Origin: Bacteroidales bacterium
GTDB taxonomy: Bacteria; Bacteroidota; Bacteroidia; Bacteroidales; P3
Direction: 5' to 3'
Assembly (NCBI GenBank): GCA_017480245.1
Contig: JAFVBA010000013.1
Location: 1-64,000 of the forward strand
DNA length: 64,000 nt
Made by a program: the position numbers and the translations under genes. Shown here one piece after another: positions 27,037 to 63,064 of the stretch (positions are counted from its first letter, which is position 1; every line of letters starts with the position of its first letter). The notes below the pieces were generated by a model. It was not told the origin of the DNA and did not search any database. It worked only from the letters and a program-made list of their open reading frames with translations.

Positions 27037-27138
27037 ACATTTTACGGATTTTTTTTGAACATACAGTGATTTTTGCTCTTTTTTCCCGCAAAGCAGTCCT
27101 TACAATGCGCAAAAAATTCCTGACAAATTGCCGTTAAA

Positions 27139-27400
27139 TGCAGTCAATTTCCGATTATTTGCTGCCAATTTGGAAACAAATGCCGATAGGAAAGAATTAT
27201 TTGCCGACAAATTAAATCAAAAGACCTGGTTTTTCGCTTCAAATAACCTGGTTTTTCAAAGTCAATAACCTGGTCTTTTGCATCAAATAACCAGGTCTTT
27301 TGATTTAAATTGGCGGCATTTGATTCGTTTTGTGCGGCATTGGGTTCTGAAATTGCGGCAGTTATGTCGGTTTCTGCACCTTTTGTTTTATAAGATTGCA
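27139..27400. repeat. Palindromic phased word array (21/22-bp spacing), locus A
   Basis: Between rimP and the hexosaminidase, TGC words recur at 27139, 27160, 27181 and 27202 (exactly 21 bp). CCTGG words follow at 27225, 27247 and 27269, and CCAGG at 27291 (exactly 22 bp); then GCA words at 27316, 27337 and 27358 (21 bp), with weaker ones at 27376 and 27398. The whole is symmetric about 27260: TTAAATCAAAAGACCTGGT (27212-27230) is perfectly complementary to 27290-27308. An 85-codon minus-strand frame through it is a by-product of the repeats. The function is unknown; a large hairpin or a phased protein-binding array are possible. The rest of the 700-bp spacer shows only promoter boxes. Confidence 0.85.
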
Positions 27401-27621
27401 ATACTGAATTTCTTAATTACAAGTTTTCTCCCCTCGCCGTTAAGTAATTTTTACGGGAAGATACGTTTTCTTAATTAAAGATTAAGGATTCTTCAACGGA
27501 AGGTAAGTTTGCTTAATAAAATGGTAAAAAATCTCAAGGAGAAGGTAAAGGTGTTTGATAAATATGTAAAGATTTTTATCGGATTGTAAGGACGGTAAAA
27601 AGAAATATTAAAAATTTTTGT

Positions 27622-27629
27622 TAATTTTG
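27622..27629 (+). promoter_or_regulatory. -7 box of the hexosaminidase gene
   Basis: TAATTTTG followed by C stands 26 bp before the ATG, matching the Bacteroidota -7 consensus. No TTTG is seen at the expected upstream spacing. Confidence 0.5.
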
Positions 27630-27655
27630 CGGTTTCAATTTAAATAAGCAGTGTT

Positions 27656-30001
27656 ATGAATTTTAAATCATCAATATTTATTGCCTTGACGTTGGCATTT
27701 GTGTATATTAATAATGTATGTGCCCAGAAAATTGCGGTGGTTCCGCAGCCAAGTAATGTTCTGATTAAAGAAAATGCACGGGATTTTGTCTTCAGTGCGG
27801 AAAAAACCAAGATATTTGCACCTAAAGATTGCAAAACGGCACAGATTCTCGCCGAAAGCCTACAATATTTTTATCCCGAAAGAGAAGGCGTTATGCCAAA
27901 AGATGACAATATGCGGCAGAATATGGATAACAGTATTATTTTCGTAACTACTGCGATGCGGAACTTAGGCACCGAAGGCTATGTTATCGACGTTAATGAC
28001 CGAAGAATCACCATTGAAGCCAACGATGAAACGGGATTTTTCTATGCGCTTCAGACGTTATGGCAACTTATCGGAACTGATTTCTATTTAGACAGGTACA
28101 ACGGGAATTTTACCGCCGTTAAAGGTTATCAAAGAAGCATTGCTCCGTGCAGGATAGAGGATTATCCGCGTTTTGCTTACAGAGGAAAACATTTGGACTG
28201 CGCCCGCCATTTCTTTGACGCCTCTTATATCAAAAAGTATATAGATTTGTTGGCATTTCATAAGATTAACGTATTCCATTGGCACCTTACCGATGACCAA
28301 GGGTGGCGTTTGGAGATAAAGAAGTACCCCAAATTGCAGGAAGTAGCGGCCTACCGTAACGGAACGTTAATCGGACATTACTCCGACCGCCCCGAAAGCG
28401 AACATATCTACGACACAATCCGCTACGGAGGGTATTACACTCAGCAAGAAGTGAAAGAAATAGTAAAATATGCGGCAGAGAGGCATATAACCATTATTCC
28501 TGAGATTGAGTTGCCAGGACACAGTATGGCGGCGATAGCGGCTTATCCCGAGTTGTCATGCCGCGGCGAGCAGATAGAAGTTTGCAAGACTTGGGGCGTA
28601 CTGGACGATGTCTTCTGTCCGAAAGAAAAGACGTTCAAGTTTATATTTGACGTGCTGGACGAAGTTATGGATTTGTTCCCGTCAGAGTATATTCACATAG
28701 GGGGAGATGAGTGTCCTACGGTGAGATGGCAAGAGTGCAAGAATTGTCAGAAACTTATGAAAGAGAAAGGTTTTACTTCCGAAAATCAAATACAGGGTTA
28801 CTTCACCACACGTGTTGAGGACTATTTGAATGCACACGGCAGGAAGATTATAGGTTGGGACGAGATATTGGAAAAGGGAGTGCGTCCGAGTGCTACCATT
28901 CTTTCCTGGCAGGGAGAACAGGGCGGCATAAATGCAGCAAAACAGGGCAACGACGCTATTATGGCGGCAAGTGCGTATCTATATTTTAACTTCTATCAAG
29001 GAGTTGCTTCCACCGAGCCGCTTAGTTTCGGCGGATTCACTCCTCTGAAGAAGACATATCTGTTTGAACCCGTTGCAAAGGAACTTTCTTCTGACGAAGC
29101 GTTACATATAATAGGTATGCAGGCATGTACCTGGACTGAATATATAGACAATACGGATTTGTTGGAATATAATGATTTGCCGCGTATGTCAGCCCTTAGC
29201 GAAAGAGCATGGAGTAAGAAAGAGATTAATGATTACGAGGGCTTCGTGAAACGTCTGGACAACGTATTGAAAATATATGAAGACGCAGGGTTTAATTATT
29301 CCAAATCACACTATGCAGTTTTGGCTCAGAGTTCAAGTACTGAGGGCAAAATACAAATCTCTCTTTCCTCTGCATTACAGGACGGAAAAATCTATTACAC
29401 AATAAACGGCGGCGTGCCTACGGAAAACAGTACCGAATACACACGTCCTTTTACCATAAACAGTGATGCCGTTATTCAGGCGGCGGCATATAAGAACCAC
29501 AAGTTATATTCTCCGCTTTTCAAGGCAGAATATCATATCAATAAGGCTACGGGAAAACCTTACGAGATGAGCGATGTTAATCCTCAGTACAACGCAGGCG
29601 GCGGTTTTGCATTGACTGACGGCATAAGAGGCAACAAAAAATCCTATGACTCATGGGTCGGAACCTATGGTAAGGACTTTTGTCCCGTTTTGGATATGGG
29701 AAAATCCACCGATATAAGCTCCGTAAGTATTAACTTCTTGGACGAAGAGGGTAGTTGGATATTTTTGCCTAAGGAAGTGAAGTTCTACGTTTCCGAAGAT
29801 AAGGTCAATTGGAAAGAATTGGCGGGCGTAATCAAACAAGACGTGGAAGGAAATCCTAAAGTAGTGAATTACTCTGTGTATTGTCAGCAAAAAGCACGCT
29901 ATGTCAAAGTATTGGGCATAACAATTGGAAACTGCCCTGAAGGACATTCGGGAGCAGGTTATCCTTCACACATGTTCGGCGACGAAATTGAGGTCAGATA
30001 A
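27656..30001 (+). CDS. Exported beta-N-acetylhexosaminidase, GH20
   Basis: A 781-residue glycosidase releasing terminal GlcNAc/GalNAc from glycans. A signal peptide (residues 1-24, ending NNVCAQ) is followed by a GH20b N-terminal domain (about 28-165). The GH20 barrel has HWHLTDDQGWRLEIKKYP (about 200-220) and the catalytic pair in HIGGDECP (Asp351-Glu352), with TWTEYIDNTD further on. After about 530 comes a chitobiase C-terminal Ig-like module (YYTINGGVPTENS, then AAAYKNHKLYSP) and a discoidin/F5-8 type C carbohydrate-binding domain (about 640-781). This is the common gut-Bacteroidales arrangement for mucin or host-glycan use. It appears monocistronic. Confidence 0.95.
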   Translation: MNFKSSIFIALTLAFVYINNVCAQKIAVVPQPSNVLIKENARDFVFSAEKTKIFAPKDCKTAQILAESLQYFYPEREGVMPKDDNMRQNMDNSIIFVTTAMRNLGTEGYVIDVNDRRITIEANDETGFFYALQTLWQLIGTDFYLDRYNGNFTAVKGYQRSIAPCRIEDYPRFAYRGKHLDCARHFFDASYIKKYIDLLAFHKINVFHWHLTDDQGWRLEIKKYPKLQEVAAYRNGTLIGHYSDRPESEHIYDTIRYGGYYTQQEVKEIVKYAAERHITIIPEIELPGHSMAAIAAYPELSCRGEQIEVCKTWGVLDDVFCPKEKTFKFIFDVLDEVMDLFPSEYIHIGGDECPTVRWQECKNCQKLMKEKGFTSENQIQGYFTTRVEDYLNAHGRKIIGWDEILEKGVRPSATILSWQGEQGGINAAKQGNDAIMAASAYLYFNFYQGVASTEPLSFGGFTPLKKTYLFEPVAKELSSDEALHIIGMQACTWTEYIDNTDLLEYNDLPRMSALSERAWSKKEINDYEGFVKRLDNVLKIYEDAGFNYSKSHYAVLAQSSSTEGKIQISLSSALQDGKIYYTINGGVPTENSTEYTRPFTINSDAVIQAAAYKNHKLYSPLFKAEYHINKATGKPYEMSDVNPQYNAGGGFALTDGIRGNKKSYDSWVGTYGKDFCPVLDMGKSTDISSVSINFLDEEGSWIFLPKEVKFYVSEDKVNWKELAGVIKQDVEGNPKVVNYSVYCQQKARYVKVLGITIGNCPEGHSGAGYPSHMFGDEIEVR

Positions 30002-30090
30002 TTTCTCTTCGGCGGCAATGGTTTTGAAAATGTAAAGGTACGAATAACCGAAGGTAAGATAATAACGGTGAATACATAAAACGGGTGCTT

Positions 30091-30603
30091 ATGAATATAA
30101 AAGTAAAGAGAATATTGGTAAGAATTTTTGACAAATCTATAAAAACGGGTTGGTTTTTCAGACTTATGGTTGTTTTGTCGGCACTGTACGGATTGTTTTT
30201 TACGCTGTTTAACGGCGGGGTGTTATTCCTGCGCAATTATCTGACGGAATATCTTTCCCAAACATCTGTTCCCGATACTCTGTTCTTTTATAAGGAGAAT
30301 CTGCTGTTCTTTGTTACTGCCAACAGGGTAATGTATCTTATCTGTTTTGCGGCAGGAATTTTCATACTGTATGGTTGCCATCTTCTGTTCAGAGGATATA
30401 AATGGGGATTGTTTTTTTATACCGTTGCAAAGATATTTCAAGTTATCACGCCGGTAGTTTTTCTCGGCTGGAGGGCATTTGCTGTCGGTGATGTGATGAT
30501 AATTCTTTTTTTCTTGGTATTTTACTATTACTATTCCTTTACTCACAATATAGAAAAGGCACTTCGCAAGTACAACCAAATTAAACCGCAAGACGAAAAC
30601 TAA
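30091..30603 (+). CDS. Unknown four-span membrane protein
   Basis: About 170 residues from the ATG at 30091 (a GTG two codons earlier is possible). Hydrophobic spans lie near residues 22-45, 75-98, 110-130 and 135-150, and the C-terminus is a polar helix. I recognise no family. Its TAA overlaps the ATG of the following methylase gene (TAATG), so they are translated together, though a functional link is not evident. Confidence 0.6.
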   Translation: MNIKVKRILVRIFDKSIKTGWFFRLMVVLSALYGLFFTLFNGGVLFLRNYLTEYLSQTSVPDTLFFYKENLLFFVTANRVMYLICFAAGIFILYGCHLLFRGYKWGLFFYTVAKIFQVITPVVFLGWRAFAVGDVMIILFFLVFYYYYSFTHNIEKALRKYNQIKPQDEN

Positions 30604-31307
30604 TGGCTGCTTTATATTTATTCCCTACTTTATTAGCCGATATTCAATGGCAGGAATGCATACCCGTAAAGAATGCAGAGAAGATTCTTTGCTGCGAATG
30701 TTTTATCGTAGAAGAATTACGGACTGCACGCAGGTTTCTTCGCAAAATAGGTTACAACAAATCCTTTGACCAAGTAACCTTCTTTGTCCTCAATGAGCAT
30801 ACAACCGATATTGAGATGACGAACTATTTGTATCCTATCAACGAAGGCAAAGATATATTCCTTATGTCCGAAGCAGGACTACCCTGCGTAGCTGACCCTG
30901 GGAGCAAAATAGTAAAGAAAGCCCATTCATTAGATATTGAAGTAATCCCTTTAACAGGTCCGTCTTCTATATATATGTCATTGATGGCAAGTGGTTTCAA
31001 CGGACAGAACTTTGCTTTCTTAGGATATCTTCCCGTTAAGGATAATGACAGGGAAAAGAAACTAAGACAAATTGAAGACAGATGTTATAAGGAAAATCAA
31101 ACTCAAATATTTATTGAAGCGCCGTACCGTAATGATAGAATGTTTCAAACGATGATGAAAGTTTTAAATGATAATACATTACTGTGTATTGCAACCGATA
31201 TTACATCTGAGCAGCAGAATATAAAAACTCATTGCGTTGCCCAATGGAAAAAGAAAAAAGACTTCACTATCGGCAAACGCAATACAATATTTTTATTATA
31301 TAAGTAA
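30603..31307 (+). CDS. RsmI-like tetrapyrrole-methylase-family SAM methyltransferase
   Basis: A 234-residue protein of the tetrapyrrole (corrin/porphyrin) methylase fold. LFLMSEAGLPCVADPGSKIV-type sequence (about 92-112) and IPLTGPSSIYMSLMASGFNG (about 118-137) are the diagnostic SAM-site blocks, as in RsmI, which 2'-O-methylates 16S rRNA C1402. FIEAPYRND matches the later RsmI block. The N-terminus is divergent and the length is shorter than canonical RsmI (about 280), so it may be the Bacteroidota short paralogue. It starts in the stop codon of the preceding membrane-protein gene. Confidence 0.8.
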   Translation: MAALYLFPTLLADIQWQECIPVKNAEKILCCECFIVEELRTARRFLRKIGYNKSFDQVTFFVLNEHTTDIEMTNYLYPINEGKDIFLMSEAGLPCVADPGSKIVKKAHSLDIEVIPLTGPSSIYMSLMASGFNGQNFAFLGYLPVKDNDREKKLRQIEDRCYKENQTQIFIEAPYRNDRMFQTMMKVLNDNTLLCIATDITSEQQNIKTHCVAQWKKKKDFTIGKRNTIFLLYK

Positions 31308-31333
31308 GTAAAAGACAATTATAAGATACTATT

Positions 31334-32590
31334 ATGAGACCGCTGGCGGAAATATTGAGACCTCAAACCCTTGATGAGTATATAGGACAGAAACATTTGG
31401 TAAATAAGGGCGCTATATTGCGTAATGCTATTGACAAAGGCGTTATTCCTTCCATGATTTTGTGGGGTCCTCCCGGCGTTGGCAAAACTACGCTGGCTAA
31501 TATCATAGCCAATACTCTTTTGATGCCGTTTTATTCTCTCAGTGCCATAAATTCGGGCGTTAAAGATGTAAGAGACGTTGTCGATAGGGCAAAACAGCAC
31601 GGCGGTAACTGCATTCTGTTTATTGATGAGATACATCGTTTCAGTAAATCGCAACAAGATTCTCTTTTGGGAGCAGTTGAAAAAGGTATAGTTACTCTTA
31701 TCGGCGCCACAACCGAAAATCCGTCTTTTGAAGTCATATCTCCTTTACTTTCAAGGTGTCAAGTTTATGTTCTTAAGTCGTTGGAAAAAGATGATTTGGC
31801 TATTCTTATTGACAAAGCCAAGACTTACATTGAGAAAACCGAGAAACGCAATATCAATATCAAAGAGACGGAGGCTTTAATGCGGATTTCAGGAGGCGAT
31901 GCCCGCAAGTTACTCAATGCAATTGAGGTTGTATGTTCGCAAATGGGCGGAGATATTGAGATAACTAATGATTTGGTCGGACATATTATTCAACAGAATT
32001 TGTCAATGTATGACAAAAAAGGCGAAAATCATTACGATATTATCTCGGCATTTATAAAGAGTTTGCGAGGTTCTGACCCCAATGCAGCGGTATATTGGTT
32101 GGCAAGAATGATTGACAGCGGCGAAGACCCGTTATTTATTGCCCGAAGAATGCTTATCCTTGCCAGTGAAGATATTGGCAACGCCAATCCGAACGCACTG
32201 CTATTGGCTAATGCATGTTTTGATGCCGTCAATAAAATCGGCTATCCTGAGTGCCGAATTATTCTTTCCCAAACAGCGATATACCTTGCCACTTCCAAGA
32301 AATCAAATGCCAGTTACATGGCTATTGATACTGCGCTGGCGGAAGTTAAAAACAGCGGAGATTTGCCCGTACCTTTGCATATAAGAAACGCACCGACCAA
32401 ACTTATGAAGCAATTAGGTTACGGCGACAACTACAAATATGCCCACGATTACGAAGGAAACTTCGTTCAACAGCAGTTTCTTCCCGACCGGTTGCAAGGA
32501 AAAATTTTCTATGACCCGTCAGATAACCGCAAAGAGAATGAAATCCGCAACGATTTGCGCCAAAAATGGAGCGGAATATACGATTATTAA
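31334..32590 (+). CDS. rarA: Replication-associated recombination protein A (RarA/MgsA)
   Basis: A 418-residue AAA+ ATPase of the clamp-loader clade that acts at stalled forks. Walker A is GPPGVGKTT (about 45-53), Walker B is LFIDEIHRF (about 95-103), and sensor 1 lies in IGATTENPS. The C-terminal MgsA oligomerisation region is seen in YDIISAFIKSLRGSDPNAA (about 235-253) and the ending SDNRKENEIR. The gene follows the methylase by 26 bp, probably in one transcript. Confidence 0.95.
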   Translation: MRPLAEILRPQTLDEYIGQKHLVNKGAILRNAIDKGVIPSMILWGPPGVGKTTLANIIANTLLMPFYSLSAINSGVKDVRDVVDRAKQHGGNCILFIDEIHRFSKSQQDSLLGAVEKGIVTLIGATTENPSFEVISPLLSRCQVYVLKSLEKDDLAILIDKAKTYIEKTEKRNINIKETEALMRISGGDARKLLNAIEVVCSQMGGDIEITNDLVGHIIQQNLSMYDKKGENHYDIISAFIKSLRGSDPNAAVYWLARMIDSGEDPLFIARRMLILASEDIGNANPNALLLANACFDAVNKIGYPECRIILSQTAIYLATSKKSNASYMAIDTALAEVKNSGDLPVPLHIRNAPTKLMKQLGYGDNYKYAHDYEGNFVQQQFLPDRLQGKIFYDPSDNRKENEIRNDLRQKWSGIYDY

Positions 32591-32652
32591 AATAAATTAG
32601 TACCCCCCCGCACAGGCAATTTGGATTTATTAACTACCTATGTTCCAGTATT

Positions 32653-32738
32653 AAAATAAAGTGCCGAATCACGAGATTCTTTTCAAAAAAGAGTAAAATG
32701 TTTTCAGAAAAGAATTTACTGATTCGGCACTTTATTTT
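32653..32738. repeat. Intergenic palindrome with AATAAAGTGCC arms, locus B
   Basis: AAAATAAAGTGCCGAATCA (32653-32671) is an exact inverted repeat of 32720-32738. Inside it ATTCTTTTC (32676-32684) pairs with GAAAAGAAT (32707-32715) about the same centre, and TTTTC words at 32680 and 32701 are 21 bp apart. It lies in the 342-bp space between rarA and panB, which otherwise holds only the panB promoter. It could act as a terminator for rarA, but similar copies elsewhere (42415, 48509) point to a repeat family. Confidence 0.85.
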
Positions 32739-32841
32739 GATTAAATTTTATTGCCTACGCGAGTTGCACCGGGTTATTTTTAGAAATACTTAAGTGTTTA
32801 TTGCTAAATAATGAATGGTAGGTATTATATAACAGTTTTGT

Positions 32842-32872
32842 TTTGTCAGTTTATAAAATTAATGTACTTTTG
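32842..32872 (+). promoter_or_regulatory. Promoter of panB
   Basis: TTTG (32842-32845) and TACTTTTG (32865-32872) are 19 bp apart, the canonical Bacteroidota -33/-7 pair. The leader to the ATG at 32933 would be about 55 nt. Confidence 0.75.
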
Positions 32873-32932
32873 CAGGACGAATTCTAATTGAGAGTAATTT
32901 TTGATATACTAATATATAATAAGGAAATAAAG

Positions 32933-33754: not shown

Positions 33755-33775
33755 TCTATAATCAGATTATTTATA

Positions 33776-33813
33776 ATAGGTCATATAGGGCTTTTAAGAC
33801 TTATATGGCCTAT
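33776..33813 (+). terminator. Hairpin downstream of panB
   Basis: ATAGGTCATATA (33776-33787) pairs with TATATGGCCTAT (33802-33813) with one G-T pair. No long T-run follows directly, so termination is probable but not certain. Confidence 0.5.
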
Positions 33814-33855
33814 AAATCTTATAAAAATTTAAAAAAAATCTATTTTCAGTGTAAC

Positions 33856-33896
33856 TTTTTTGTGTTTCGTGCATTTTACTTATAGAAACACAAAAA
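33856..33896. promoter_or_regulatory. Perfect 12-bp inverted repeat upstream of the outer-membrane barrel gene
   Basis: TTTTTGTGTTTC (33856-33867) and GAAACACAAAAA (33885-33896) are exact complements around a 17-bp loop, ending 12 bp before the ATG at 33909. It could be a leader hairpin or a dimer operator controlling the sigma-factor operon. No normal -7 box is seen here, which would fit an alternative-sigma promoter. Confidence 0.5.
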
Positions 33897-33908
33897 TTTT
33901 ATAATAAA

Positions 33909-34589: not shown

Positions 34590-34597
34590 GTACATCA

Positions 34598-35080: not shown

Positions 35081-35082
35081 AG

Positions 35083-35805: not shown

Positions 35806-35811
35806 GCAGCA

Positions 35812-37233: not shown

Positions 37234-37239
37234 CTCATT

Positions 37240-37360
37240 TAGTATATAGAATGTAGTATGTAGCATTTGATTTATTTAGAATGTAGTAAGTAGAATGTAG
37301 TATATATAGGGGGTGCCATTAGGCTATATACTACATTCTACATGCTAAATACTACATAAA
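37240..37360. repeat. Heptad-word inverted array between convergent genes, locus C
   Basis: TAGAATG, TAGTATG, TAGCATT, then TAGAATG, TAGTAAG, TAGAATG and TAGTATA follow each other with a 7-bp step. After a GGGGGTGCC centre the complement appears as CTATATACTACATTCTACAT and further CTAC words at 37331, 37338 and 37352. The unit lies between the sigma operon and the hydrogenase gene, so it could also terminate transcription both ways. Confidence 0.8.
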
Positions 37361-37372
37361 AATGCCTATTTT

Positions 37373-38800: not shown

Positions 38801-39003
38801 TTTGTGTTTTCTATTTCTTTTTTAGTTATAAACCTTTTTAACTTACTTCTTTTTATCTACTTTTCACTTATATCATTTTATAACAGTTGCATTATTGCCG
38901 AAAAATACTAAGTCTTTCATTTGAAAGTACCGAAAATCACGGCACTTCCTTATAAACTCTTCCCTACTTTCTGCAACACATACTTTTTTTTGCAACTCCT
39001 AAT

Positions 39004-39258: not shown

Positions 39259-39280
39259 AATTGTTCCTTTCTGTTTAAAA

Positions 39281-39370
39281 TATTTGACTTTTAATATTTG
39301 ATACTTGTCTTTTCGTTGTGCCGTTTTGTCAAATCCAACTCTCAATATCAAATATCCGAATGCCAAATGT
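39281..39370. repeat. Heptad-word array with TTTGA/TCAAA arms, locus D
   Basis: TATTTGA occurs at 39281 and 39295 (14 bp apart) and is mirrored by TCAAAT at 39329, TCAAATA at 39349 and CCAAATG near 39363. It occupies the spacer before the second ferredoxin gene. Confidence 0.6.
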
Positions 39371-42409: not shown

Positions 42410-42412
42410 AAA

Positions 42413-42475
42413 TTAAAGTGTCATTTCAGTAAATTCTTTCTTGAAATTAGTAAATTCTTTTCTGAAATTAATTTT
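42413..42475. repeat. Two-unit 21-bp repeat with AAAGTGTCATTTCAG start, locus E
   Basis: AGTAAATTCTTTCTTGAAATT (unit 1, from 42428) is repeated as a near-identical unit from 42449, exactly 21 bp on; each unit is three heptads. It is preceded by AAAGTGTCATTTC, close to the arm of loci B and G. It lies inside the hydrogenase operon between ferredoxin and HydS genes. Confidence 0.75.
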
Positions 42476-42529
42476 GTAAAACGCCGTCTTATTACAATGT
42501 TTTCTTATCTACTGTTAATCAATCGTATA

Positions 42530-48470: not shown

Positions 48471-48508
48471 AAATTCGCAACAATACAACAATCTTTTAAC
48501 CACTAAAA

Positions 48509-48589
48509 ATAAAGTGCCATTTCAGTAAGTTATTTTCTGAAATTAGTAAAATGTTTTCAGAAAAAGATTGCGTGATTCGGCTCTTTATT
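48509..48589. repeat. Palindrome with AATAAAGTGCC arms, locus G
   Basis: AATAAAGTGCC (48509-48519) is mirrored by GGCTCTTTATT (48579-48589) with one mismatch. Between them TTTCAG pairs with CTGAAA, and TTTTC words at 48533 and 48554 are 21 bp apart. It is the same family as loci B and E. Confidence 0.8.
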
Positions 48590-48879: not shown

Positions 48880-48978
48880 TAAAATTTAGGGTCTAAAATT
48901 TAGAGCAGTACTCCGACTCTTTAAACTCTAAACATTAAACCCTAAACCTAATAAACTCTAAAGTCCTAAACTCTAAAT
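48880..48978. repeat. 7-bp CTCTAAA/CCCTAAA tandem words with inverted partner, locus I
   Basis: TAAA recurs at 48922, 48929, 48936 and 48943 (7-bp steps), then 48952, 48959, 48967 and 48974, giving CTCTAAA, CATTAAA and CCCTAAA heptads. The left side carries the complement, TTTAGGGTCTAAAATTTAGAG. It lies directly downstream of the SLC13 transporter gene and could also act as its terminator. Confidence 0.75.
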
Positions 48979-52391: not shown

Positions 52392-52652
52392 AATCTTGTT
52401 ATTTTTTCAATTGTTGCTTATTATTTCTATTTTAATAAACCTCAATAACGGAATAAACATTTTTTTATTACATTTCAGTTTTGCTTTTTTTGAATTTTTT
52501 TTTGCTTTTTCTCATCATTACTCCACTCCTTCGGATAAAATTTCATTGAAAATTCTTTCTATTAAAACCTTATCCGATAGGGCGGCAAAAATATTCCCTA
52601 AAGTGTCATTATTATGTAAAAAAGCAAGTGAATTTTGCGAGATAAAGCAATT

Positions 52653-54935: not shown

Positions 54936-54942
54936 TTTTTTC

Positions 54943-57579
54943 TTACATTTCAAATTTAATTTCTTCACTCCACGTTCCGTTTATCAGGAAACTTATATCG
55001 TATTTTCCTTTATTCAAATTACGTACCAAAACTTCGTTATCCGTAATTTGTTCTACCATCACAAGATTGTTATTCTTCTCTATCTTGATTTTTTCAACCT
55101 TATTGTTTCCGTCAGTAAAGAACAAAATTCTGTCTTTGTCCTTCCAAAGATACATTCCGCTCAATAAGGATTTTGATTCTTTGATTTCAATGGATTTTAA
55201 TATATGTATGCGGTAGTTTTCTGTCGTTCCGCCGGACAGATACAACTTTATACCGTCATCTTCGCACATATCATAGAATCTTTTTTCGCTTTTGTCCTCT
55301 ATAAATATCTTAACATAATCGGGCATTATGGAAAGATTGTTAAGATTTATCTCCACATCGGACGGATTGCCGATATAAAGACCTATATCATACACCGCAG
55401 GATAGTCAGGAAAGACATTAACGGAATATTCATCGTAATCATCTTTCAGATATATGTCGGGCATATCTTCATTATTGCCGAACATCTTATGACAATCCAA
55501 CGCATCAAATTCATATACCGCCGAAGAATCCATTCCCAACAACACATACTGCCAACTTTTGTTCTTAGTTACCGAAAGATTCAAATAATTGGTATTAGTC
55601 CATTCCTGCTTTGCCGTTCTCGGAATATACTGGTGGCTTCTTTTGAAAGTAATCTCAGTAGGTTGCTGCAAAGCCTCCACAAAGAACGATTCCAAAGACG
55701 GAATCATCACTTCCTCTTTCGGATCTACGATAACAGGGTTATACACTTTGGTTTCACGGTCAAAAAGCATTATGGCATTGCCTTGTATTCTGCCCTCAAT
55801 ATCATCAAATAACTTCTTGCTGGACAAAGGCGCCGTATAAGGATTACCAACTAAGTTCCAACGGTCTTCCTTTGTGGAAACGAGCGGTACAATTACGGCA
55901 GAAGAACATAAAAGTCCCTCATACTTGACATCCATCGGCTGATGGGTATAGACAGCATAGCCTTTACCCGGTTGAAGTGCAAATTCAGGGTCAGTAATGT
56001 ACTCACTCCAATAATCATCTAACTTACTGCGTTTGCCGGTATTGTATTGCATAAGCCAAGTGTCGTTATCCTTTTGCAGATTCTTCATAGAAAAGATTGC
56101 AGCCCTCGCTTGATTGACAGGAGATGAGATATAATTCCAACGTGTCGGCAAAAGATATTGATGAACTGAGAACCACGCATTCTTATTGTAGAAAATATCG
56201 TTGGAAATATAGAATGTCTTGCCTGTATTTATGGAAACGTTGGCGCTGTCTGACAAAATAAGCATACTGCAAGCCACGTCATTATCCACTTTTGCCTTAA
56301 CGCCTTTGTCAATCACCACAAAATCTTCCGTATTTGGCAAAGACTTAGGCTGCCAATTGTTAATATCCGACCAAGAACCCGATTTAACCATTGTTTTTAC
56401 CCTCGGCGAGCCGAAATAATAGTCATTCAATACAATGTTATCACGAGCCGATAGTTCAATATCAAGTTTAGTTGCTCCGTCAGGGGATTTTAACGCTGCG
56501 CAATACTCACTTTTCTTTACTGTATCGCGCATTGTGAATAGTAACTTGTCTTCCCGATACCATTTATAAAGGATATTAATTCTTTGAAATTTGGTTTCAC
56601 TCTGCGAAATTCGGTATTGATAATCGGTATTTGAGAAAACAGGAATATTGTATGAACAATTATTACCTTGTGTTAAGTTTTCAGGTAAAAGATTCTCGTT
56701 ATAATCTGTATGAGTTGCCGCCATACCTTCCAAAATTACCTCAATAGGTTGTTTAAGTTTGGAAGTATTGATAACAAGTGTTGCGCTATGTTTTCCTTCT
56801 TTCTTCGGAGTGTATGCAATGCTTATATTTTTAAGCAGAGATTGGTTGTCAATACTTGTTTGTGAGATTGTAAAACAATTAGCGTCCGCTCCGACAACTC
56901 TAAGTGTGATACTGTCTCTTATATTCTTGCTTTCAACGGCAATTCTCTTTGTTTCAGGGAAAACATACGGCAAAGGAATTTTGTTAAAATCAATATTGGC
57001 AAGTTGTTTTTTTGCTTCGTCATTGTGTCTATAGACTTTAACAACGGCAGGTACGCCAAGAAATTCGTCATATTCGGAAATAATTTGCAGATTTCTGAAA
57101 ACAATTTCCGGATATCCGGTTTTCTTTCTTGAATACGTGTCAATAAGCCAACTAACCTGCACAAATTCTTTATTATTGCAAGATTCAGGCAAAACAATGT
57201 TGTCAAAATTCCTCGAATAGCGCTTTTGAGTAGTTACAAACTCCACGTTATGCCCTCTTTTGTCCTTAACATCTTTCCAATCTTCGTCTTCACTCAATCG
57301 GTATTGCAAACGGACAAACCATTTAGTCTTTGTTTTCTTGTGAAATGAATTTTGCCAAGACAAAGTTATGTTTTCTTGATTGAGAGTGGAGAGATTATAA
57401 GTTAATCTATTGGGAACGGGAGAATATTCTTTGACATCAACGGTTTTAATTATCAAAGGCTCTTGCAAATCATACAAATTATCATTTTGCGCTGTCAATT
57501 CACAGCCGTAAAACAGGCAAAAAACTGCACAAATACACAATATAATATATATTATCTTCTTTTTCAGAAACTCCAACAT
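54943..57579 (-). CDS. Large exported envelope/surface protein, 878 aa
   Basis: An N-terminal membrane/signal segment (about 8-30, KKIIYIILCICAVFCLFYGC) is followed by beta-rich Ig-like regions (THSATLVINTSKLKQPIEVI, about 255-280) and a surface-protein module (GSWSDINNWQPKSLPNTEDF, about 388-407, then VDNDVACSMLILSDSANVSI). The C-terminal 90 residues form a small beta-domain like a secretion-sorting domain. I recognise no enzyme. It overlaps the preceding PBP-like gene by 16 bp and is followed by the OmpA-like gene, so the three probably form one operon for the envelope. Confidence 0.65.
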   Translation of the reverse strand: MLEFLKKKIIYIILCICAVFCLFYGCELTAQNDNLYDLQEPLIIKTVDVKEYSPVPNRLTYNLSTLNQENITLSWQNSFHKKTKTKWFVRLQYRLSEDEDWKDVKDKRGHNVEFVTTQKRYSRNFDNIVLPESCNNKEFVQVSWLIDTYSRKKTGYPEIVFRNLQIISEYDEFLGVPAVVKVYRHNDEAKKQLANIDFNKIPLPYVFPETKRIAVESKNIRDSITLRVVGADANCFTISQTSIDNQSLLKNISIAYTPKKEGKHSATLVINTSKLKQPIEVILEGMAATHTDYNENLLPENLTQGNNCSYNIPVFSNTDYQYRISQSETKFQRINILYKWYREDKLLFTMRDTVKKSEYCAALKSPDGATKLDIELSARDNIVLNDYYFGSPRVKTMVKSGSWSDINNWQPKSLPNTEDFVVIDKGVKAKVDNDVACSMLILSDSANVSINTGKTFYISNDIFYNKNAWFSVHQYLLPTRWNYISSPVNQARAAIFSMKNLQKDNDTWLMQYNTGKRSKLDDYWSEYITDPEFALQPGKGYAVYTHQPMDVKYEGLLCSSAVIVPLVSTKEDRWNLVGNPYTAPLSSKKLFDDIEGRIQGNAIMLFDRETKVYNPVIVDPKEEVMIPSLESFFVEALQQPTEITFKRSHQYIPRTAKQEWTNTNYLNLSVTKNKSWQYVLLGMDSSAVYEFDALDCHKMFGNNEDMPDIYLKDDYDEYSVNVFPDYPAVYDIGLYIGNPSDVEINLNNLSIMPDYVKIFIEDKSEKRFYDMCEDDGIKLYLSGGTTENYRIHILKSIEIKESKSLLSGMYLWKDKDRILFFTDGNNKVEKIKIEKNNNLVMVEQITDNEVLVRNLNKGKYDISFLINGTWSEEIKFEM

Positions 57580-58763
57580 GATTTTATTTTATAGTTATCC
57601 AATTTGTAAATAACAGCATTAGTATTTGTCCAACCTCCGCTTTCATTTGTTTTGACAAATCTGTATCTGGTTATCATCTTTTGTTGATTTGTATTGACGG
57701 GAGAAGAAATAAATTCCTTACCGTACGATTTCAACAAAGGCACAAAGTAATTTATTATATCATATCCCAAAGAGGCGTAGATTTTATCAGGTTCTGTCTT
57801 GAAATTATCACGGTACAGTTGAACGAAGTCCGTAAAATTTCCGTTAGTGTAATCATTATAATAAGTAAGTGCGAAATGAAGGTTCATATCCTGCAATTGC
57901 TTGAAATCATTTCCCACATAATCCAACCAGTCATACTTAGCAAAAAGTGTAATCTGACATTTGCTTTGGCGCAATGTATTCAAAAGCGTTTGCGCATAGG
58001 ATTTATTCTCCCCAGCAGTCTTCTTATCGGTCAGATTCACCACAAAATTATTCTCGTTTTTAGAAAGATAATTTTTTAGTTTCGCCGCACTCTTTCTATA
58101 ATTCAATATAGTCCATTTATCCGTAATCTTAGGCAAGTTTTCTTTCCAATAATTGACAACAGATTGCGCAACATCTTTATCATCATAGATTACTACTATT
58201 TTAGATGAAGATTGCTTTTGTTGAATATACTTCAAAAGCGATGCAGACGAAGCTTCAGCGTCAGGTTGCAACTTAAAAACGTACGGATTTAACAATATAC
58301 TGTTATCGGGCGACATAGGATTAATCAAAGGTATCTGATTAACCTGACAAAAACTGCTTACAAGAGCAAAACTATTCTTAAAGACAAGAGAAATTATCAA
58401 ATCCATATCTTTCATTGCGTCATAGTTCAACGCTTTTTGCATCTTGTTTTCGTCATTCTCCCCTACGTCAAAGACATATAAGGAAACCTTATAACCCTGC
58501 CGCTCCAAATTATCCAAAGCAATCCTCGCACCTTCGTAAAAAGAGATATAAGTAAAACATTTGTAGTTTTTGCCTCTGCGTTCATCTATATTGTACTCAT
58601 TAAACGACAATTCATCGATGTTTTCATAGAATAACGGCAAAAGCATTGCAACCTTTATGTTTTTATGTTCTATGTTGTATGTATTATGTACTATGTTAGC
58701 CTGACGGCAGTATAAACTTACTGACGCAAATACTAACAATATTATGACAAATATCCTTTTCAT
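57564..58763 (-). CDS. Exported periplasmic-binding-protein type 1 (receptor ligand-binding-like)
   Basis: About 399 residues from the ATG at 58763 (MKRIFVIILLVFASVSLYC, signal peptide); an ATG five codons upstream is possible. The PBP type-1 fold of amino-acid/branched-chain receptors is seen: KVAMLLPLFYEN, FYEGARIALDNLERQGYKV, NQIPLINPMSPDN (about 145-157) and KIVVIYDDKDVAQSVVNYW. The first 20 residues after the signal peptide are encoded by repeated ACATAnn heptads. No transporter genes lie beside it; with its envelope neighbours it may be a ligand-binding scaffold rather than a transporter component. Confidence 0.75.
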   Translation of the reverse strand: MKRIFVIILLVFASVSLYCRQANIVHNTYNIEHKNIKVAMLLPLFYENIDELSFNEYNIDERRGKNYKCFTYISFYEGARIALDNLERQGYKVSLYVFDVGENDENKMQKALNYDAMKDMDLIISLVFKNSFALVSSFCQVNQIPLINPMSPDNSILLNPYVFKLQPDAEASSASLLKYIQQKQSSSKIVVIYDDKDVAQSVVNYWKENLPKITDKWTILNYRKSAAKLKNYLSKNENNFVVNLTDKKTAGENKSYAQTLLNTLRQSKCQITLFAKYDWLDYVGNDFKQLQDMNLHFALTYYNDYTNGNFTDFVQLYRDNFKTEPDKIYASLGYDIINYFVPLLKSYGKEFISSPVNTNQQKMITRYRFVKTNESGGWTNTNAVIYKLDNYKIKSCWSF

Positions 58764-58839
58764 ATCAATATATTTCAATTTGACTTACTGAATATGACCT
58801 TTTACATAGTACATACAACATAATACATAGTACATAATA
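58664..58839. repeat. ACATAnn heptad arrays flanking a gene start, locus K
   Basis: 58804-58839 reads ACATAGT, ACATACA, ACATAAT, ACATAGT, ACATAAT, five heptads in a row, with ACATAGTAC at 58804 and 58825. About 58664-58697 carries the inverted equivalent (GTACTATGT, GTTCTATGT, 21 bp apart), inside the coding sequence of the PBP-like gene. The gene's start codon and signal-peptide codons lie between the two arms. The outer array occupies nearly all of the short spacer to guaA. Confidence 0.8.
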
Positions 58840-58842
58840 TAA

Positions 58843-60369
58843 TTATTCCCATTCTATTGTTGCAGGAGGTTTGGAAGATATGTCATAACAAACTCTATTC
58901 ACCCCTTTAACTTGGTTGATTATCTTATTGGAAACCTCAGCCAAGAATTCGTAAGGCAGATGACACCAATCGGCAGTCATACCATCCACACTCTCAACGG
59001 CACGTAAGGCAACAACACGTTCGTATGTTCTTTCATCACCCATAACTCCCACACTCTGAATAGGAAGTAAGATTGCGCCTGCCTGCCATACCTTATCATA
59101 CAAATCCCATTGCTTCAAAGAAGATATAAATATGTTATCAACCTCCTGAAGTATGGCAACTTTTTCTTCTGTTATATCTCCAAGAATACGGATTGCCAAT
59201 CCCGGACCAGGAAAAGGATGTCTGCCCAACAGTTCTTGCTTCAAACCAAGTTCTTTTCCGACTTTACGGACTTCATCTTTAAATAAGAGTCTCAAAGGTT
59301 CTACTAACTGCAATTTCATATAGTCAGGCAATCCGCCGACATTATGATGCGATTTGATAGTTTGCGAAGGTCCTTTAACACTGCTTGATTCTATTACGTC
59401 AGGATATATAGTTCCCTGTCCTAACCACTTAACATCTTTAAGTTTATTGGCTTCTCTGTCGAATACGTCTATAAATGTCTTTCCTATTGCCTTACGTTTC
59501 TTTTCAGGTTCGGTAACTCCTGCCAATACTTTGTAGAAATCCTGTTTTGCATCCACACCTATGACATTTAAACCCATATCTTGATAAGATGCAAGTACGT
59601 CTGAGAACTCGTTTTTACGCAAAAGGCCGTTATCAACAAAGATGCAAGTAAGATTTTTCCCGATTGCACGGTGCAAAAGCATAGCAGCAACGGAAGAATC
59701 TACGCCTCCGCTAAGCCCAAGTACCACTTTGTCATCGCCAAGTTTAGCTTTCAAATCCTCAACTGTTGATTTCACAAAACCAGCAGGCGTCCAAGAACCG
59801 TCGCAACGGCAAATATCCAAAACAAAGTTCCTTAGTAACTGACTTCCGAACTCACTGTGATGTACTTCAGGGTGGAATTGGATTGCGTAAGTTTCCTCTC
59901 CTTTTATTTTATAGCCTGCATTTTCGACGTCCTTGGTAGAACAAATTATTTCAAAGTCTTCAGGCAACTGCAAGATGGTATCTCCGTGCGACATCCACAC
60001 TTGAGAGCCTTGTTTTACGTCTTTTAGCAACGCACAATCCTCATTTACAGACACTAAATTGGCACGACCGTATTCTCTTATAACACTTTTTTCAACTTTT
60101 CCGCCCGATTTATGAACCATATACTGCGCTCCGTAACATATACCCAAAACAGGTAATTTGCCTTTGAATAAAGACAAATCCGTATCGGGTGCTTGAGGGT
60201 CGGTTACCGAATAAGGACTTCCCGAAAGCACAATTCCTTTTACGTCTTCTGTAATTTGTGGAATTTTGTTGTAAGGATGTATTTCGCAATAAACGTTTTG
60301 TTCCCTTATCTTGCGGGCTATCAATTGTGTATATTGACTGCCGTGGTCTAAAATCAATATTGTCTGCAT
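58843..60369 (-). CDS. guaA: GMP synthase (glutamine-hydrolysing)
   Basis: A 508-residue enzyme converting XMP to GMP. The class-I amidotransferase domain has the nucleophile Cys in [12 protein letters not shown] (about 75-86) and the His/Glu pair in [14 protein letters not shown] (about 160-173). The PP-loop ATPase domain has [13 protein letters not shown] (about 218-230). The C-terminal dimerisation domain ends IEWE, as usual. The 543-bp upstream spacer contains the large repeat array, locus L. Confidence 0.97.
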
Positions 60370-60554
60370 TGTTATCTTTGTTTTTTATTATAATCCGTTA
60401 TCTAAACTTTGCGGTATTACAACTCGTAATAACACTTTCAAATTAAAACTTCAAAATTACAACATTTTTTACAATTAAACGTCATTTTGGCAATATAGTA
60501 TTATAAAAAACGGTAATACGACGATTATTTATTGCAACAAATCAATGAAATAAA

Positions 60555-60769
60555 TTTGCAATCTCTTGTAAAATTTTTGTAACATCGCATAACATTTTTG
60601 TAATTTCAAGAAAGATTTTTGTTCAGACCGTCCAAAATACACTTTTGAACCGTCTAAAAGTATATTTTGAACGGTCTAAAATATACTTTTAGACCGTTCA
60701 AACAAAAATCTTTCTTGAAATTACAAAAATCTTTCTTCCGATTGCAAAATTCTTTTGAGAAATTGCAAA
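60555..60769. repeat. Palindromic phased word array (21/22-bp spacing), locus L
   Basis: TTTG words end at 60558, 60579, 60600 and 60621 (21 bp). Central words ACCGTCC (60627), ACCGTCT (60649), ACGGTCT (60671) and ACCGTTC (60693) are exactly 22 bp apart. CAAA words start at 60703, 60724, 60745 and 60766 (21 bp). All are symmetric about 60662. The inner arms TTTCAAGAAAGATTTTTGTT (60604-60623) and its complement 60701-60720 are perfect. The plan matches locus A though the words do not. It lies between divergent guaA and the transferase gene, in a 543-bp spacer with no gene. Confidence 0.88.
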
Positions 60770-60863
60770 CTTATTATTTGATTTTACGCTAATTACATCT
60801 CAAAAAACGAAAAAGGACCTAAAAAAAAACAACTAAGAAGAGTTGAAGAATTATTTTTTTTCA

Positions 60864-60871
60864 TAAATTTG
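60864..60871 (+). promoter_or_regulatory. -7 box of the MraY/WecA-type transferase gene
   Basis: TAAATTTG followed by C lies about 40 bp before the ATG, matching the Bacteroidota -7 consensus. No -33 TTTG at 19 bp is seen. Confidence 0.45.
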
Positions 60872-60912
60872 CAACTTCAACGTTGAATATTTATTAAACA
60901 ACAACAAAGGTT

Positions 60913-62073
60913 ATGACATTAGGACTGACAGTTATTACGTTTTTATTGAGTCTGGGGATTTCTCTTGTACTTATGCCTCCGTTTATTAAACTAATGGAGA
61001 AATACAAAATACTGGATAAGGCAGGCGGAAGAAAAATCCACACAGGTTATACTGCACACATGGGCGGAATTGTAATCTTTATATCATTTATGCTGACAGT
61101 TTGCGCAATGTTGTTTGCCTATGCAACGGATATTCAACGCCCTAAACTATTGTATATGGGGATTGTCTTATTCGTTATGCTCATTGTCGGCGTAAGGGAT
61201 GATATGCACAATATTTCTCCTTGGACTAAACTGTTTTTTGAAATACTTATAGGTATATTTATGTCATATATCGGAGTGAGATTGGATAGTTTGGGCGGCT
61301 TTTTAGGAATATATGAAATACCTAAATGGTTCAGTTTCGGAATTACTACATGCTTTTTCATCGTTGTAGTAAATGCTTACAATTTGATTGACGGTATTGA
61401 CGGACAAGCAGGAATGCAGGCGGTAAATGTATTTCTTTTCTGCCTGTTGTTCTATGTGGTTATAGTAGGAAGTCATTTCAACAATTCTTCTGTGGTATCT
61501 CCTACCCTAATGTATCTTTCTGCTTTGGCAATATTGGGTGCCATTACAGGATTTTTACGTTACAATTGGCAGAAAGCAAGAATCTTTATGGGAGATACGG
61601 GAAGTTTGTTCATAGGAACGTTGATTACTATTTTTATTATAACATCCTCTAAATACGCTATGCTTTGCAATGTATGGGACGGCGCAAACAATTCGTTTGA
61701 ACATACATTCTTCGGTTTGCATTTAAAAGCTACTCTTGCACCTTTCCTAACCCTGTTCTATTTACCTATGGCTGATACCTTAAGAGTATTTATCAACAGA
61801 GCAAGAAGAGGCAAAAGTCCTTTCCATCCTGACAAAACCCATATACATCACCTGTTTATCCGATTGGGATATTCACACCAAAGATGCACTCTTACAACTT
61901 TCACAATATCTTTCTGTATCTCAATAATAGGTTTTGTTTGTGCCTTGTTGTTTAATGATAATATTTGCATACCTCTGATAATCGTATCATGGTTTTTATA
62001 TGTTAAACTATTGCATTTTATTGTGATTGAGCGGTTTAGGGGGGGGGTATTTAATAAGACGACAACAAAATAA
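60913..62073 (+). CDS. MraY/WecA-family polyprenyl-phosphate sugar-1-phosphate transferase
   Basis: A 386-residue membrane protein with about 10-11 spans that moves a sugar-1-phosphate (probably GlcNAc-1-P) to undecaprenyl phosphate on the inner face of the membrane. Signatures: GGRKIHTGYTAHMGGI (about 37-52), VVVNAYNLIDGIDGQAG (about 149-165), MGDTGSLFIGT (about 226-236) and the HHLFIRLGYSHQR block (about 312-324). This is the WecA-like clade for O-antigen/capsule or surface glycans. Nine consecutive G (62039-62047) lie 12 codons before the stop. It ends 12 bp before ftsE. Confidence 0.9.
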   Translation: MTLGLTVITFLLSLGISLVLMPPFIKLMEKYKILDKAGGRKIHTGYTAHMGGIVIFISFMLTVCAMLFAYATDIQRPKLLYMGIVLFVMLIVGVRDDMHNISPWTKLFFEILIGIFMSYIGVRLDSLGGFLGIYEIPKWFSFGITTCFFIVVVNAYNLIDGIDGQAGMQAVNVFLFCLLFYVVIVGSHFNNSSVVSPTLMYLSALAILGAITGFLRYNWQKARIFMGDTGSLFIGTLITIFIITSSKYAMLCNVWDGANNSFEHTFFGLHLKATLAPFLTLFYLPMADTLRVFINRARRGKSPFHPDKTHIHHLFIRLGYSHQRCTLTTFTISFCISIIGFVCALLFNDNICIPLIIVSWFLYVKLLHFIVIERFRGGVFNKTTTK

Positions 62074-62085
62074 AACAAATGCATA

Positions 62086-62763
62086 ATGGAAAACAACAAA
62101 GAACAATTATCGGTTTATCTTAAGAACGTCTGTATCGCTTATGATAAGACAGTATTAACCGATGTTAATTTAGAAATCAGTAAAGGTGAATTTGTCTATC
62201 TTATCGGCAAGACAGGAGCAGGCAAATCAACACTTCTGCGCAGTCTTTACGCAGATGTTAATATAGGAAGCGGAGAAGCCTCTGTCTGCGGTTTTTCTCT
62301 GAAAGATATTTCCAAAAAAGACATTCCTCTGTTGAGAAGAAAACTTGGCATAGTCTTTCAGGATATTCAACTTTTGACCGACCGCAACGTTTATGACAAC
62401 CTTGCTTTTGTCTTGAAGGCAACGGGAACCAAAGACAAGGCAGTTATAAATGAAAAGGTAACAAATGCGTTAAAGATGGTGGGATTGGAAGACAAAGCAA
62501 ACGTATTTCCTTACACTCTTTCCGAAGGTGAAAGTCAGAGAATCACTTTGGCGAGAGCTATTGTCAATAATCCCGAAATGATTATCGCCGATGAACCTAC
62601 TGGAAACCTTGACCCTATCACCAGTGAGGAGATTGTCAAACTGCTTTTCAAACTTAATAAAGAGCAAGGGACAACTATCCTTATGGCAACGCACGATTAT
62701 TTGATTATAAACGATTTCCGTTCCCGTATCATCTCATGCGAAAACGGTAAGATAGTGGAATAA
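62086..62763 (+). CDS. ftsE: Cell-division ABC ATPase FtsE
   Basis: A 225-residue ABC ATPase. Walker A GKTGAGKST (about 42-50), Q-loop VFQDIQLL, ABC signature LSEGESQRITLARAI (about 146-160; SEGES in place of SGGEQ) and Walker B MIIADEPTGNLD (about 166-177) with the D-loop. FtsE works with the membrane protein FtsX to regulate cell-wall hydrolases at the septum; ftsX is not next to it here, which is common in Bacteroidota. The signature variant SEGES should still be functional. Confidence 0.85.
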   Translation: MENNKEQLSVYLKNVCIAYDKTVLTDVNLEISKGEFVYLIGKTGAGKSTLLRSLYADVNIGSGEASVCGFSLKDISKKDIPLLRRKLGIVFQDIQLLTDRNVYDNLAFVLKATGTKDKAVINEKVTNALKMVGLEDKANVFPYTLSEGESQRITLARAIVNNPEMIIADEPTGNLDPITSEEIVKLLFKLNKEQGTTILMATHDYLIINDFRSRIISCENGKIVE

Positions 62764-62968
62764 AATCACAGCATAACAAAACACAGAAATAATCAACCAT
62801 AATAACCTAATAACCACGCAAAATAACCTACAATAATGCGTAGTTATTATATTTTTGCGGCAAATAGAATTTCCAAATAGTTGCTTTAATGTATTTTTAC
62901 CGAATGAGTATTACTTAACTCACACAAACAAACCTATCTTTCCTAACCTTGCAAACCTGTAATGAATA

Positions 62969-63035
62969 ATTGATTTTGAATATCTAATATTTGATTTACC
63001 TAATGGCTCCATGATAAATTCAAAATCAAATATCA
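62969..63035. repeat. Heptad-word palindrome with TTGATTTTGAAT arms, locus M
   Basis: TTGATTTTGAAT (62970-62981) is exactly complementary to ATTCAAAATCAA (63018-63029). The flanking words TATTTGA and TATCAAAC continue the pattern in 7-bp steps. It lies in the 483-bp space between ftsE and the leucine-rich-repeat gene; the rest of that space holds the hairpin at 63065 and a -7 box. Confidence 0.7.
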
Positions 63036-63064
63036 AACGTCTAATATCACAAAACTATATCTTC

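Follow-up and report, generated by a model that had tools for sequence, protein, structure and literature searches.

Known repeat systems and the locus

The short tandemly repeated repetitive (STRR) sequences of cyanobacteria are intergenic tandem repeats of a heptanucleotide, and plasmid iterons are direct sites about two helical turns apart to which a self-regulating protein binds. Sequence preference is slight in ordinary HU, and IHF recognizes one consensus at single sites. Here we describe intergenic arrays of degenerate words repeated at 21- and 22-base pair (bp) steps in a Bacteroidales bacterium (GenBank assembly GCA_017480245.1), starting from a window of 64,000 bp (bases 1–64,000 of contig C12, JAFVBA010000013.1). 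We put at about 0.62 the probability that these are operator arrays for paralogous, sequence-specific HU-type proteins (HU-HIG, HU_rel), each with a private word set, a reading drawn from sequence comparison. The linkage of HU-HIG genes to phased arrays appears to be new: a literature search of partial coverage found no paper linking Bacteroidota HU proteins to 21/22-bp arrays.

In the parts of its description used here, BrickBuilt of Porphyromonas gingivalis is proposed to resemble miniature inverted-repeat transposable elements (MITEs) and consists of imperfect 23-nucleotide tandem units in many intergenic copies, one of which (BrickBuilt_14) lies between a membrane-protein gene and the gene of a PF00216 DNA-binding protein (PMC4596501). 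Our arrays resemble it, as far as those parts go, in occurring in Bacteroidales, in intergenic position, near-two-turn units and flanking parts, and in their many copies. They differ in that BrickBuilt has 23-nucleotide units, one word class and a separate leader and tail that end in small inverted repeats, and that its described parts hold no link to HU. When these features were looked for in our arrays, the intergenic position was found and the 23-nucleotide direct repeat was not; a leader and tail with terminal inverted repeats were absent from the ACTCT and ACCGTC classes (named after their words), and the TTCTGAA class has sharp inverted ends.

Repetitive extragenic palindromic sequences and bacterial interspersed mosaic elements (REP/BIME), in the portions of two reports consulted, are dispersed intergenic palindromes in arrays with cognate RAYT transposases (PMC2817692, PMC3733652). 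The arrays described here are likewise dispersed intergenic palindromes with a cognate, here candidate, protein family, and differ in their fixed two-turn spacing, in the many word classes per genome and in a candidate HU partner. In bacteria, heptamer repeats form a known class, and slippage has been proposed as their origin (as cited in PMC4679880); the excerpt consulted of the same source also reports TAACTGA heptamer repeats in five Bacteroidetes. Similar 7-bp tandem words between genes form only a minor class here, in which the words are degenerate and inverted. The 21/22-bp arrays are not heptameric, their core unit being a 22-bp dyad rather than a tandem 7-bp unit, so the initial annotation of this DNA, which named STRR as the nearest analogue, is not upheld on this point. 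From iterons the arrays differ in being chromosomal and dispersed, in having many classes and in having no known involvement of replication genes.

Periodicity of intergenic DNA

The source assembly is 1.75 Mb and an estimated 70% complete, and its close relatives are rumen Bacteroidales metagenome-assembled genomes (MAGs), for example RGIG9295 and RGIG4929. We analysed 464 kb of it (C9:1–320,000 and C12:1–144,000, window included; sample 1) and another 397 kb (sample 2), 861 kb together. All genomes are draft MAGs, and genes were called by a simple longest-open-reading-frame rule.

In the 4,841 bp of host-side intergenic DNA of the window, exact 5-mer self-matches at lags 3–45 were compared with dinucleotide shuffles, and z exceeded 3 only at lags 7, 14, 21, 22, 42 and 44. 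The excess at lags 7, 21 and 22 on which the initial annotation had staked its case is therefore present, and intergenic 6-mer self-matches per lag replicate lags 21 and 22 in both samples: sample 1 has 625 matches against 53 in shuffles at lag 21 (z = 76) and 398 against 52 at lag 22 (z = 39), and sample 2 has 516 against 51 (z = 52) and 382 against 54 (z = 26). Lesser excesses fall at lags 7, 11, 14, 20, 23, 28, 42–45 and 63 in sample 1 and at lags 23, 42, 44, 47 and 63 in sample 2. Lags 21 and 22 dominate, with lag 23 at z = 6.4 and 4.1 in samples 1 and 2, and lags 7 and 14 reach z = 6.1 and 12.6 in sample 1 and stay below 3.5 in sample 2. Coding DNA (751 kb), the comparison by which the pattern could have failed, has no excess at lag 22 (356 versus 330) or lag 44 (288 versus 323); its lags 21 and 42 are raised, as codon periodicity would give.

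Arrays were called per intergenic region at a 99% shuffle threshold, which 59 of 213 regions exceed in sample 1. Among the 401 intergenic regions flanked by genes, 122 hold arrays, of which 89 are of the 21/22-bp type, 23 are heptameric and 10 are of other kinds. The repeat pattern is real and is two separate things, 21/22-bp arrays and fewer heptamer arrays. All loci had originally been grouped as one family built on 7-bp words; the heptamer arrays, 23 of the 122, are distinct in length, place and class, and this rules out a single heptad family for all loci.

Anatomy of the arrays

A typical 21/22-bp element has a core of three to five 22-bp units, each nearly palindromic, between arms whose 21-bp units each carry a directional word; the arms are inverted about the centre. 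Array A, in the rimP/GH20 spacer of the window (27126–27375 as a whole), has CCTGG core units and TTTGCCG arms, and a class-1 (ACCGTC) array lies in the guaA/GT4 spacer:

27126–27215, plus strand: array A, left arm; words ATTTGCCG, TTTGCTGCC and ATGCCG at steps of about 21–22 bp, read from the sequence
27216–27304, unstranded: array A, core; four near-palindromic 22-bp units around CCTGG/CCAGG, from a tandem repeat finder, lag-22 score 34
27305–27375, minus strand: array A, right arm; inverted words GGCGGCA and GCGGCA at steps of about 21–22 bp, read from the sequence
60527–60626, plus strand: class-1 array, left arm; words TTTTTGCAAT and TTTTTGTAA at 21-bp steps, arm profile with best lag 21
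60627–60699, unstranded: class-1 array, core; 22-bp units with ACCGTC/GACGGT in both orientations, from a tandem repeat finder
60700–60775, minus strand: class-1 array, right arm; CAAAAATCTTTCTTGAAATTA units at 21-bp steps, lag-21 score 27

Counted by pattern, the classes are ACCGTC (13), ACTCT (17), CCTATG (9), GGGGGTA (4), TTCTGAA (23), AAAGTGCG (8), heptameric (23) and other (25, including some ACCGTC elements matched in an arm), and several word classes coexist within the source genome. Across both samples, as first noticed in the window, the words change from locus to locus and the spacing and inversion stay. In 22 half-elements of the ACTCT arm, conservation falls on the words, which recur every 21 bp, and the intervening letters are almost uninformative; the information profile repeats at lag 21 there and in the ACCGTC arm (52 half-elements). 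Since the words are conserved and the intervening letters are free, the spacing itself is maintained.

These properties bear on whether the elements might be transcribed RNA hairpins, that is, terminators or attenuators. Their RNA folding energy is far better than that of shuffles (mean z −6.8 to −9.9 for the ACTCT, ACCGTC, CCTATG and TTCTGAA classes and −2.5 for heptamers), a score that is uninformative because any inverted repeat would give it, and the TTCTGAA element resembles an intrinsic terminator for both directions. Against this, outside the common words, an element's two arms pair no better with each other than with arms of other elements: the match is 0.560 within against 0.530 between elements for ACCGTC (class 1; 113 of 2,000 shuffles reach it) and 0.435 against 0.419 for ACTCT (class 2; 575 of 2,000), with few elements available (14 and 7). 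This lack of covariation makes a hairpin unlikely and speaks against hairpin selection for the arrays, and we hold an RNA reading of the elements, the TTCTGAA class apart, to be very improbable. The initial annotation had offered selection on structure or on a phased protein array; conserved words with free spacers support the phased protein array, while a folded structure is not supported. It had also anticipated compensatory word changes, which are absent within elements and appear between species as whole word sets that differ.

Measured from the start codon that it faces, the array centre lies a median of 205 bp upstream (quartiles 165–268; 75 genes), and the four dyad classes are seldom found in convergent spacers (2/43 versus 79/401 spacers overall). 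The ACTCT and ACCGTC classes fade outwards word by word, with no sharp ends.

Association with HU-HIG genes

The proteins that face arrays are functionally diverse, with 106 Pfam families among 70 proteins. Of the 25 families inspected, none points to a functional theme beyond HU-HIG and Por_Secre_tail, which tie as the top families with three members each (3/70). The source genome has 13 PF18291 matches, all 13 over the cut-off, and two of these are ordinary HU without arrays. The HU-HIG proteins also match TIGR01201 (HU_rel; 9/9 at E of 0.001 or better, the first member at 83.9 bits against a cut-off of 68.6), and their sequence profile matches HU and IHF structures over about positions 30–120 (best E 7e-8, by profile comparison only). 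While these matches tie them to HU and IHF, they differ in that paralogues here go with different phased arrays.

Counting a gene as array-bearing if an array lies within 450 bp upstream, we find arrays at 7 of the 11 non-canonical HU genes (HU-HIG/HU_rel) and at 105 of 657 background genes (p = 0.0006). The HU-HIG genes linked to arrays all lie outside the window, and their seven own arrays have seven cores: ACCGTC, AAACGG, GGGGGTA, CCTATG, CCAGG, CGGGGT and AAAGTATATACTTT. Related paralogues have a common arm word and different core words, both in the pair L209/L213 (arm word TTTGCCGAC) and in the pair L210/L216 (TTTTGCCACTTG). The left-arm word of array A recurs upstream of L209 and L213, and the CCAGG/CCTGG core as in array A is also found upstream of L213.

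Over the genus set (14 genomes, source included), an array stands upstream of 35 of 80 HU-HIG genes, taken from 91 HU-type genes recovered, against 220 of 1,276 genes of three of these species (p = 1e-7); because orthologues and clustered genes are included, these counts are not independent. The calling threshold misses at least one real array (G013, L252). PF18291 matches number 30 in G002 and 16 in G006, several in tight clusters.

Gene and array also go together between genomes. Class-1 array matches occur in 3 of the 14 genus genomes, source included (up to 18 candidates scored per genome), plus one weak 35-base match in another genus, and orthologues of the class-1 HU-HIG gene occur in just the same three genomes (88 and 70% identity; next best 43%). 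Class-3 (GGGGGTA) arrays, searched with the copy upstream of L210, match in G000, G001, G004 and G013 (4/14 genomes). In G001 (92%) and G013 (90%) the best matches immediately precede the HU-HIG orthologue, which is partly common descent of gene and flank, given that query. The class-3 HU-HIG gene is found in G000, G001 and G013 at 96–98% identity. Its protein (L210) is 98% identical to that of G013, where GuaA is 87% and the array about 90% identical, which suggests that the class-3 gene moved horizontally together with its array.

The diversity of array-facing genes would also fit arrays that are read by other regulators, of AraC or Lrp type or a general nucleoid protein, with the HU-HIG genes merely among those regulated, and two AraC-ligand-domain proteins are indeed among the 70 array-facing proteins. 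We regard this as rather improbable: it accounts neither for the differing cores at HU-HIG genes and the arm words common to paralogues, nor for the class-1 gene and arrays in the same three genomes or the lag-22 repeats in seven further families described below.

Same positions, other words in congeners

An excess at lag 21 or lag 22, with words of their own, is present in 10 of 12 congeners (11–40 kb sampled each) and is not seen in G002 and G003 at that sampling. The guaA–GT4 spacer holds a class-1 element in G004 and, in G001 and G013, a different ACTCT-type element each, with other cores; G005, G008, G011 and G012 have no array there, and the remaining genomes have another neighbour gene or a contig end. 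Upstream of rimP, G001, G013, G008 and G012 have arrays with four further word sets, in a comparison that quotes only genomes with a visible array (the gene picked for G004, G010 and G003 looks wrong by frame).

Upstream of orthologous genes, arrays are found in both genomes, in the source only, in the other only or in neither in 8, 3, 6 and 17 cases against G001 (odds ratio 7.6, p = 0.023) and in 13, 5, 8 and 24 cases against G013 (odds ratio 7.8, p = 0.0024), a test confounded by spacer length in which a divergent spacer can count twice. Downstream of orthologous genes the corresponding counts are 1, 5, 6 and 23 (G001) and 4, 3, 10 and 26 (G013), which are not significant. The words often differ at shared upstream positions; two genes in G013 retain ACCGTC, and both at the HU-HIG gene and at a second orthologous gene CCTATG of the source genome is exchanged for ACATATGT of G013.

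Sister species with arrays of different classes in one spacer are also what non-autonomous, MITE-like mobile elements would leave behind, the inverted arms and core repeats being sites for a transposition machinery, with HU-HIG as an IHF-like accessory carried along and dispersal instead of regulation explaining the copy number. Many dispersed intergenic copies per genome, inverted ends, the sharply bounded TTCTGAA class and the class-3 gene and array, which look like a transfer, all fit such elements. We nevertheless think this reading unlikely, as the ACTCT and ACCGTC classes lose one whole word after another towards their outer ends, the letters between being free, array presence is retained upstream of orthologous genes, and the dyad classes are rare in convergent spacers. 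The same retention argues against a mutational process without function, in which slippage or template switching with a two-turn footprint would combine with DNA curvature. Slippage has been proposed for heptamer repeats, and in-phase A- and T-tracts could curve the DNA. The 21/22-bp arrays, however, have the same words at many loci, keep their spacing despite free intervening letters and show no lag 22 in coding DNA, so that a mutational origin is unlikely for them and is the least probable of the readings weighed here.

Other genera and families

Within the family of the source genome, five of eight other genera have a lag-21/22 excess (9–20 kb sampled each), and G024, from one such genus, has two HU-HIG genes that each adjoin a large 21/22-bp array. 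Across 60 Bacteroidales genomes (one per family), 8 have PF18291 matches of more than 50 bits, above the ordinary HU level. One of the eight is the family of the source genome. In all seven others, the best self-repeat (lags 12–40) on one flank of the top HU-HIG gene is 22, which 0 of 100 shuffles reach, whereas none of 21 ordinary HU control loci has lag 22 (one of 22 controls gave no frame). Nine families without an HU-HIG match of more than 50 bits were sampled at 5–20 kb each, and seven of them have no lag-21/22 excess. No relative of one HU-HIG protein was found in viral contigs, and phage records gave seven distant HU matches, in unannotated faecal records.

Two single loci may be recorded here. 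L309 (Bacteroides finegoldii NZ_OY725913.1) has a 22-bp TTATCA–TGATAA dyad array upstream of WP_195399327.1. L090:14648–14938 (Bacteroidales MAG Md513_bin13) is a very regular 22-bp array of palindromic AAACCTAGGTTT units with a score of 119, the highest among the sampled genera and families; no HU-HIG gene was found at that locus.

Heptamer arrays, TTCTGAA elements and other features of the window

The heptamer arrays and related words of the window are as follows:

37240–37358, unstranded: heptamer inverted array, TAGTATG/TACTACA words, between convergent genes; tandem repeat finder
48883–48977, unstranded: heptamer inverted array, CCTAAAC/GTTTAGG words; tandem repeat finder
58654–58697, unstranded: inverted heptamer words inside a periplasmic-binding-protein coding region (gene 57564–58778), after the signal peptide by reading
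58803–58836, unstranded: heptamer array, TACATAG, directly after the guaA stop codon; tandem repeat finder
62976–63050, unstranded: heptamer inverted array, ATCTAAT/ATCAAAT words; tandem repeat finder

Heptamer arrays are short and occupy mostly small gaps; of the 23, 15 have a stop codon and 12 a start codon within 40 bp. They are a separate phenomenon, probably simple repeats near gene ends, for which a mutational origin is the default. The orthologous spacer of G001 (L065:15262–15295) also holds a heptamer array, as after guaA in the window. At the convergent heptamer spacer (37234–37372), the orthologous hydrogenase gene is followed by other sequence in the 10 congeners read. Downstream of the hydrogenase gene in G006 (L154) are repeats containing GATCTACATGAGTAGAAATTC, which we take to resemble a Cas12a-type CRISPR repeat. 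The statement that all arrays lie between host genes or at gene edges holds for most, the arm at 58654–58697 inside its gene being the exception.

Two TTCTGAA-class elements lie in the window:

42410–42493, unstranded: TTCTGAA-class inverted-repeat element, degenerate copy with an inner 21-bp dimer; aligned with 22 other copies
48505–48589, unstranded: second TTCTGAA-class copy; by eye against the class consensus, outside the 23 scored matches

Elements of this class have sharp boundaries: most of the 23 aligned copies have inverted ends of 19 bp, and A and T runs flank these ends in the alignment. Nine of the 23 are in convergent position and six lie within 40 bp of a stop codon. The class looks more like a two-way terminator or a small mobile element, and for it an RNA terminator is a likely reading.

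Two further 21-bp repeats of the window are weak and may be chance:

52463–52509, unstranded: T-rich 21-bp repeat; tandem repeat finder score 50
62788–62830, unstranded: 21-bp repeat, AATAACC words; tandem repeat finder score 58

A dispersed TATAAGGCCTATAGG-type repeat with a 9- or 18-bp step is found at 33776–33836 and also at C12:107974 and C2:30739, and 69-bp tandem repeats at 63529–63986, the end of the window, presumably encode leucine-rich BspA-like repeats, by reading. The left part of the window holds phage-type genes, including one at 8164–20565 for a polyvalent protein of 4,133 residues with PBECR2, MuF_C and MutS_I matches. The initial annotation had seen no arrays in this prophage half; only 641 bp of intergenic DNA could be tested there, with about 0.7 arrays expected, which leaves the claim without power.

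Discussion

If the arrays, those of the dyad classes above all, are operators of HU-HIG proteins, the dimers would bind the near-palindromic 22-bp core units and the neighbouring 21-bp directional words on one helix face, one dimer every two turns. About 150–250 bp in front of promoters would thereby be bent or wrapped into a regular nucleoprotein complex, which may tune or insulate the downstream promoters. The HU-HIG genes are probably self-regulated, as many bear an array of their own. Array positions would be kept over evolution and the words would change together genome-wide, either because reader and sites co-evolve or because a new reader takes over.

Several observations weigh against this reading. 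Besides the confounding of the upstream retention test, a strict syntenic-spacer test against G001 (31 spacers) gave 1, 1, 3 and 26 with arrays in both, the source, the other or neither (p = 0.25). Four of the 11 HU-HIG genes here and 45 of the 80 in the genus have no array at threshold, some of them inner genes of clusters, and the unit-consensus dyad symmetry is significant in only 13 of 35 HU-side arrays. Orthologous HU genes may have words in common in their own arrays because the flank descends from one ancestor. No HU partner is in view for the TTCTGAA and AAAGTGCG classes, G004 has class-3 array matches yet no class-3 HU-HIG orthologue was found in it, and the HU-HIG gene with an ACTCT-type array is found in G001 and G013 and not in the source genome (70% complete). 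In the seven other families, the lag-22 repeat is upstream of the gene in four and downstream in three. Conversely, one ordinary HU control flank (L289) carries a lag-21 repeat unmatched in 100 shuffles, and two of the nine sampled families without an HU-HIG match of more than 50 bits do have an excess: in 20 kb of G032, whose single HU match is an ordinary one, it falls at lag 21 (11 versus 0.5, z = 8.8), and in G034 it is weak (z = 3.1). Lastly, named records of Bacteroides, Parabacteroides, Phocaeicola, Prevotella and Treponema have a 20–22-bp array at only three of nine HU-family genes (Bacteroides finegoldii twice, at lags 22 and 20, and Treponema saccharophilum, at lag 21); two of the other six have 14-bp repeats.

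A bolder form of the operator reading, to which we give somewhat less than an even chance, is a chromatin of private codes: many HU-HIG paralogues per Bacteroidales genome would each nucleate a phased two-turn array on a word set of its own in front of many genes, gene and array could move between species as a cassette, a new or altered reader would rewrite the words throughout the genome while the positions stay, and BrickBuilt would be the version of P. gingivalis.

HU is the textbook case of binding with low sequence preference, and a branch of the family with private phased word arrays would, if real, be a new layer of regulation or chromosome architecture. Abundant unexplained intergenic repeats would then be accounted for, the joint word change of a DNA-bending protein and its many sites would become testable, and the Bacteroidales, major bacteria of gut and rumen, would gain a regulatory or chromosome-architecture layer of this kind.

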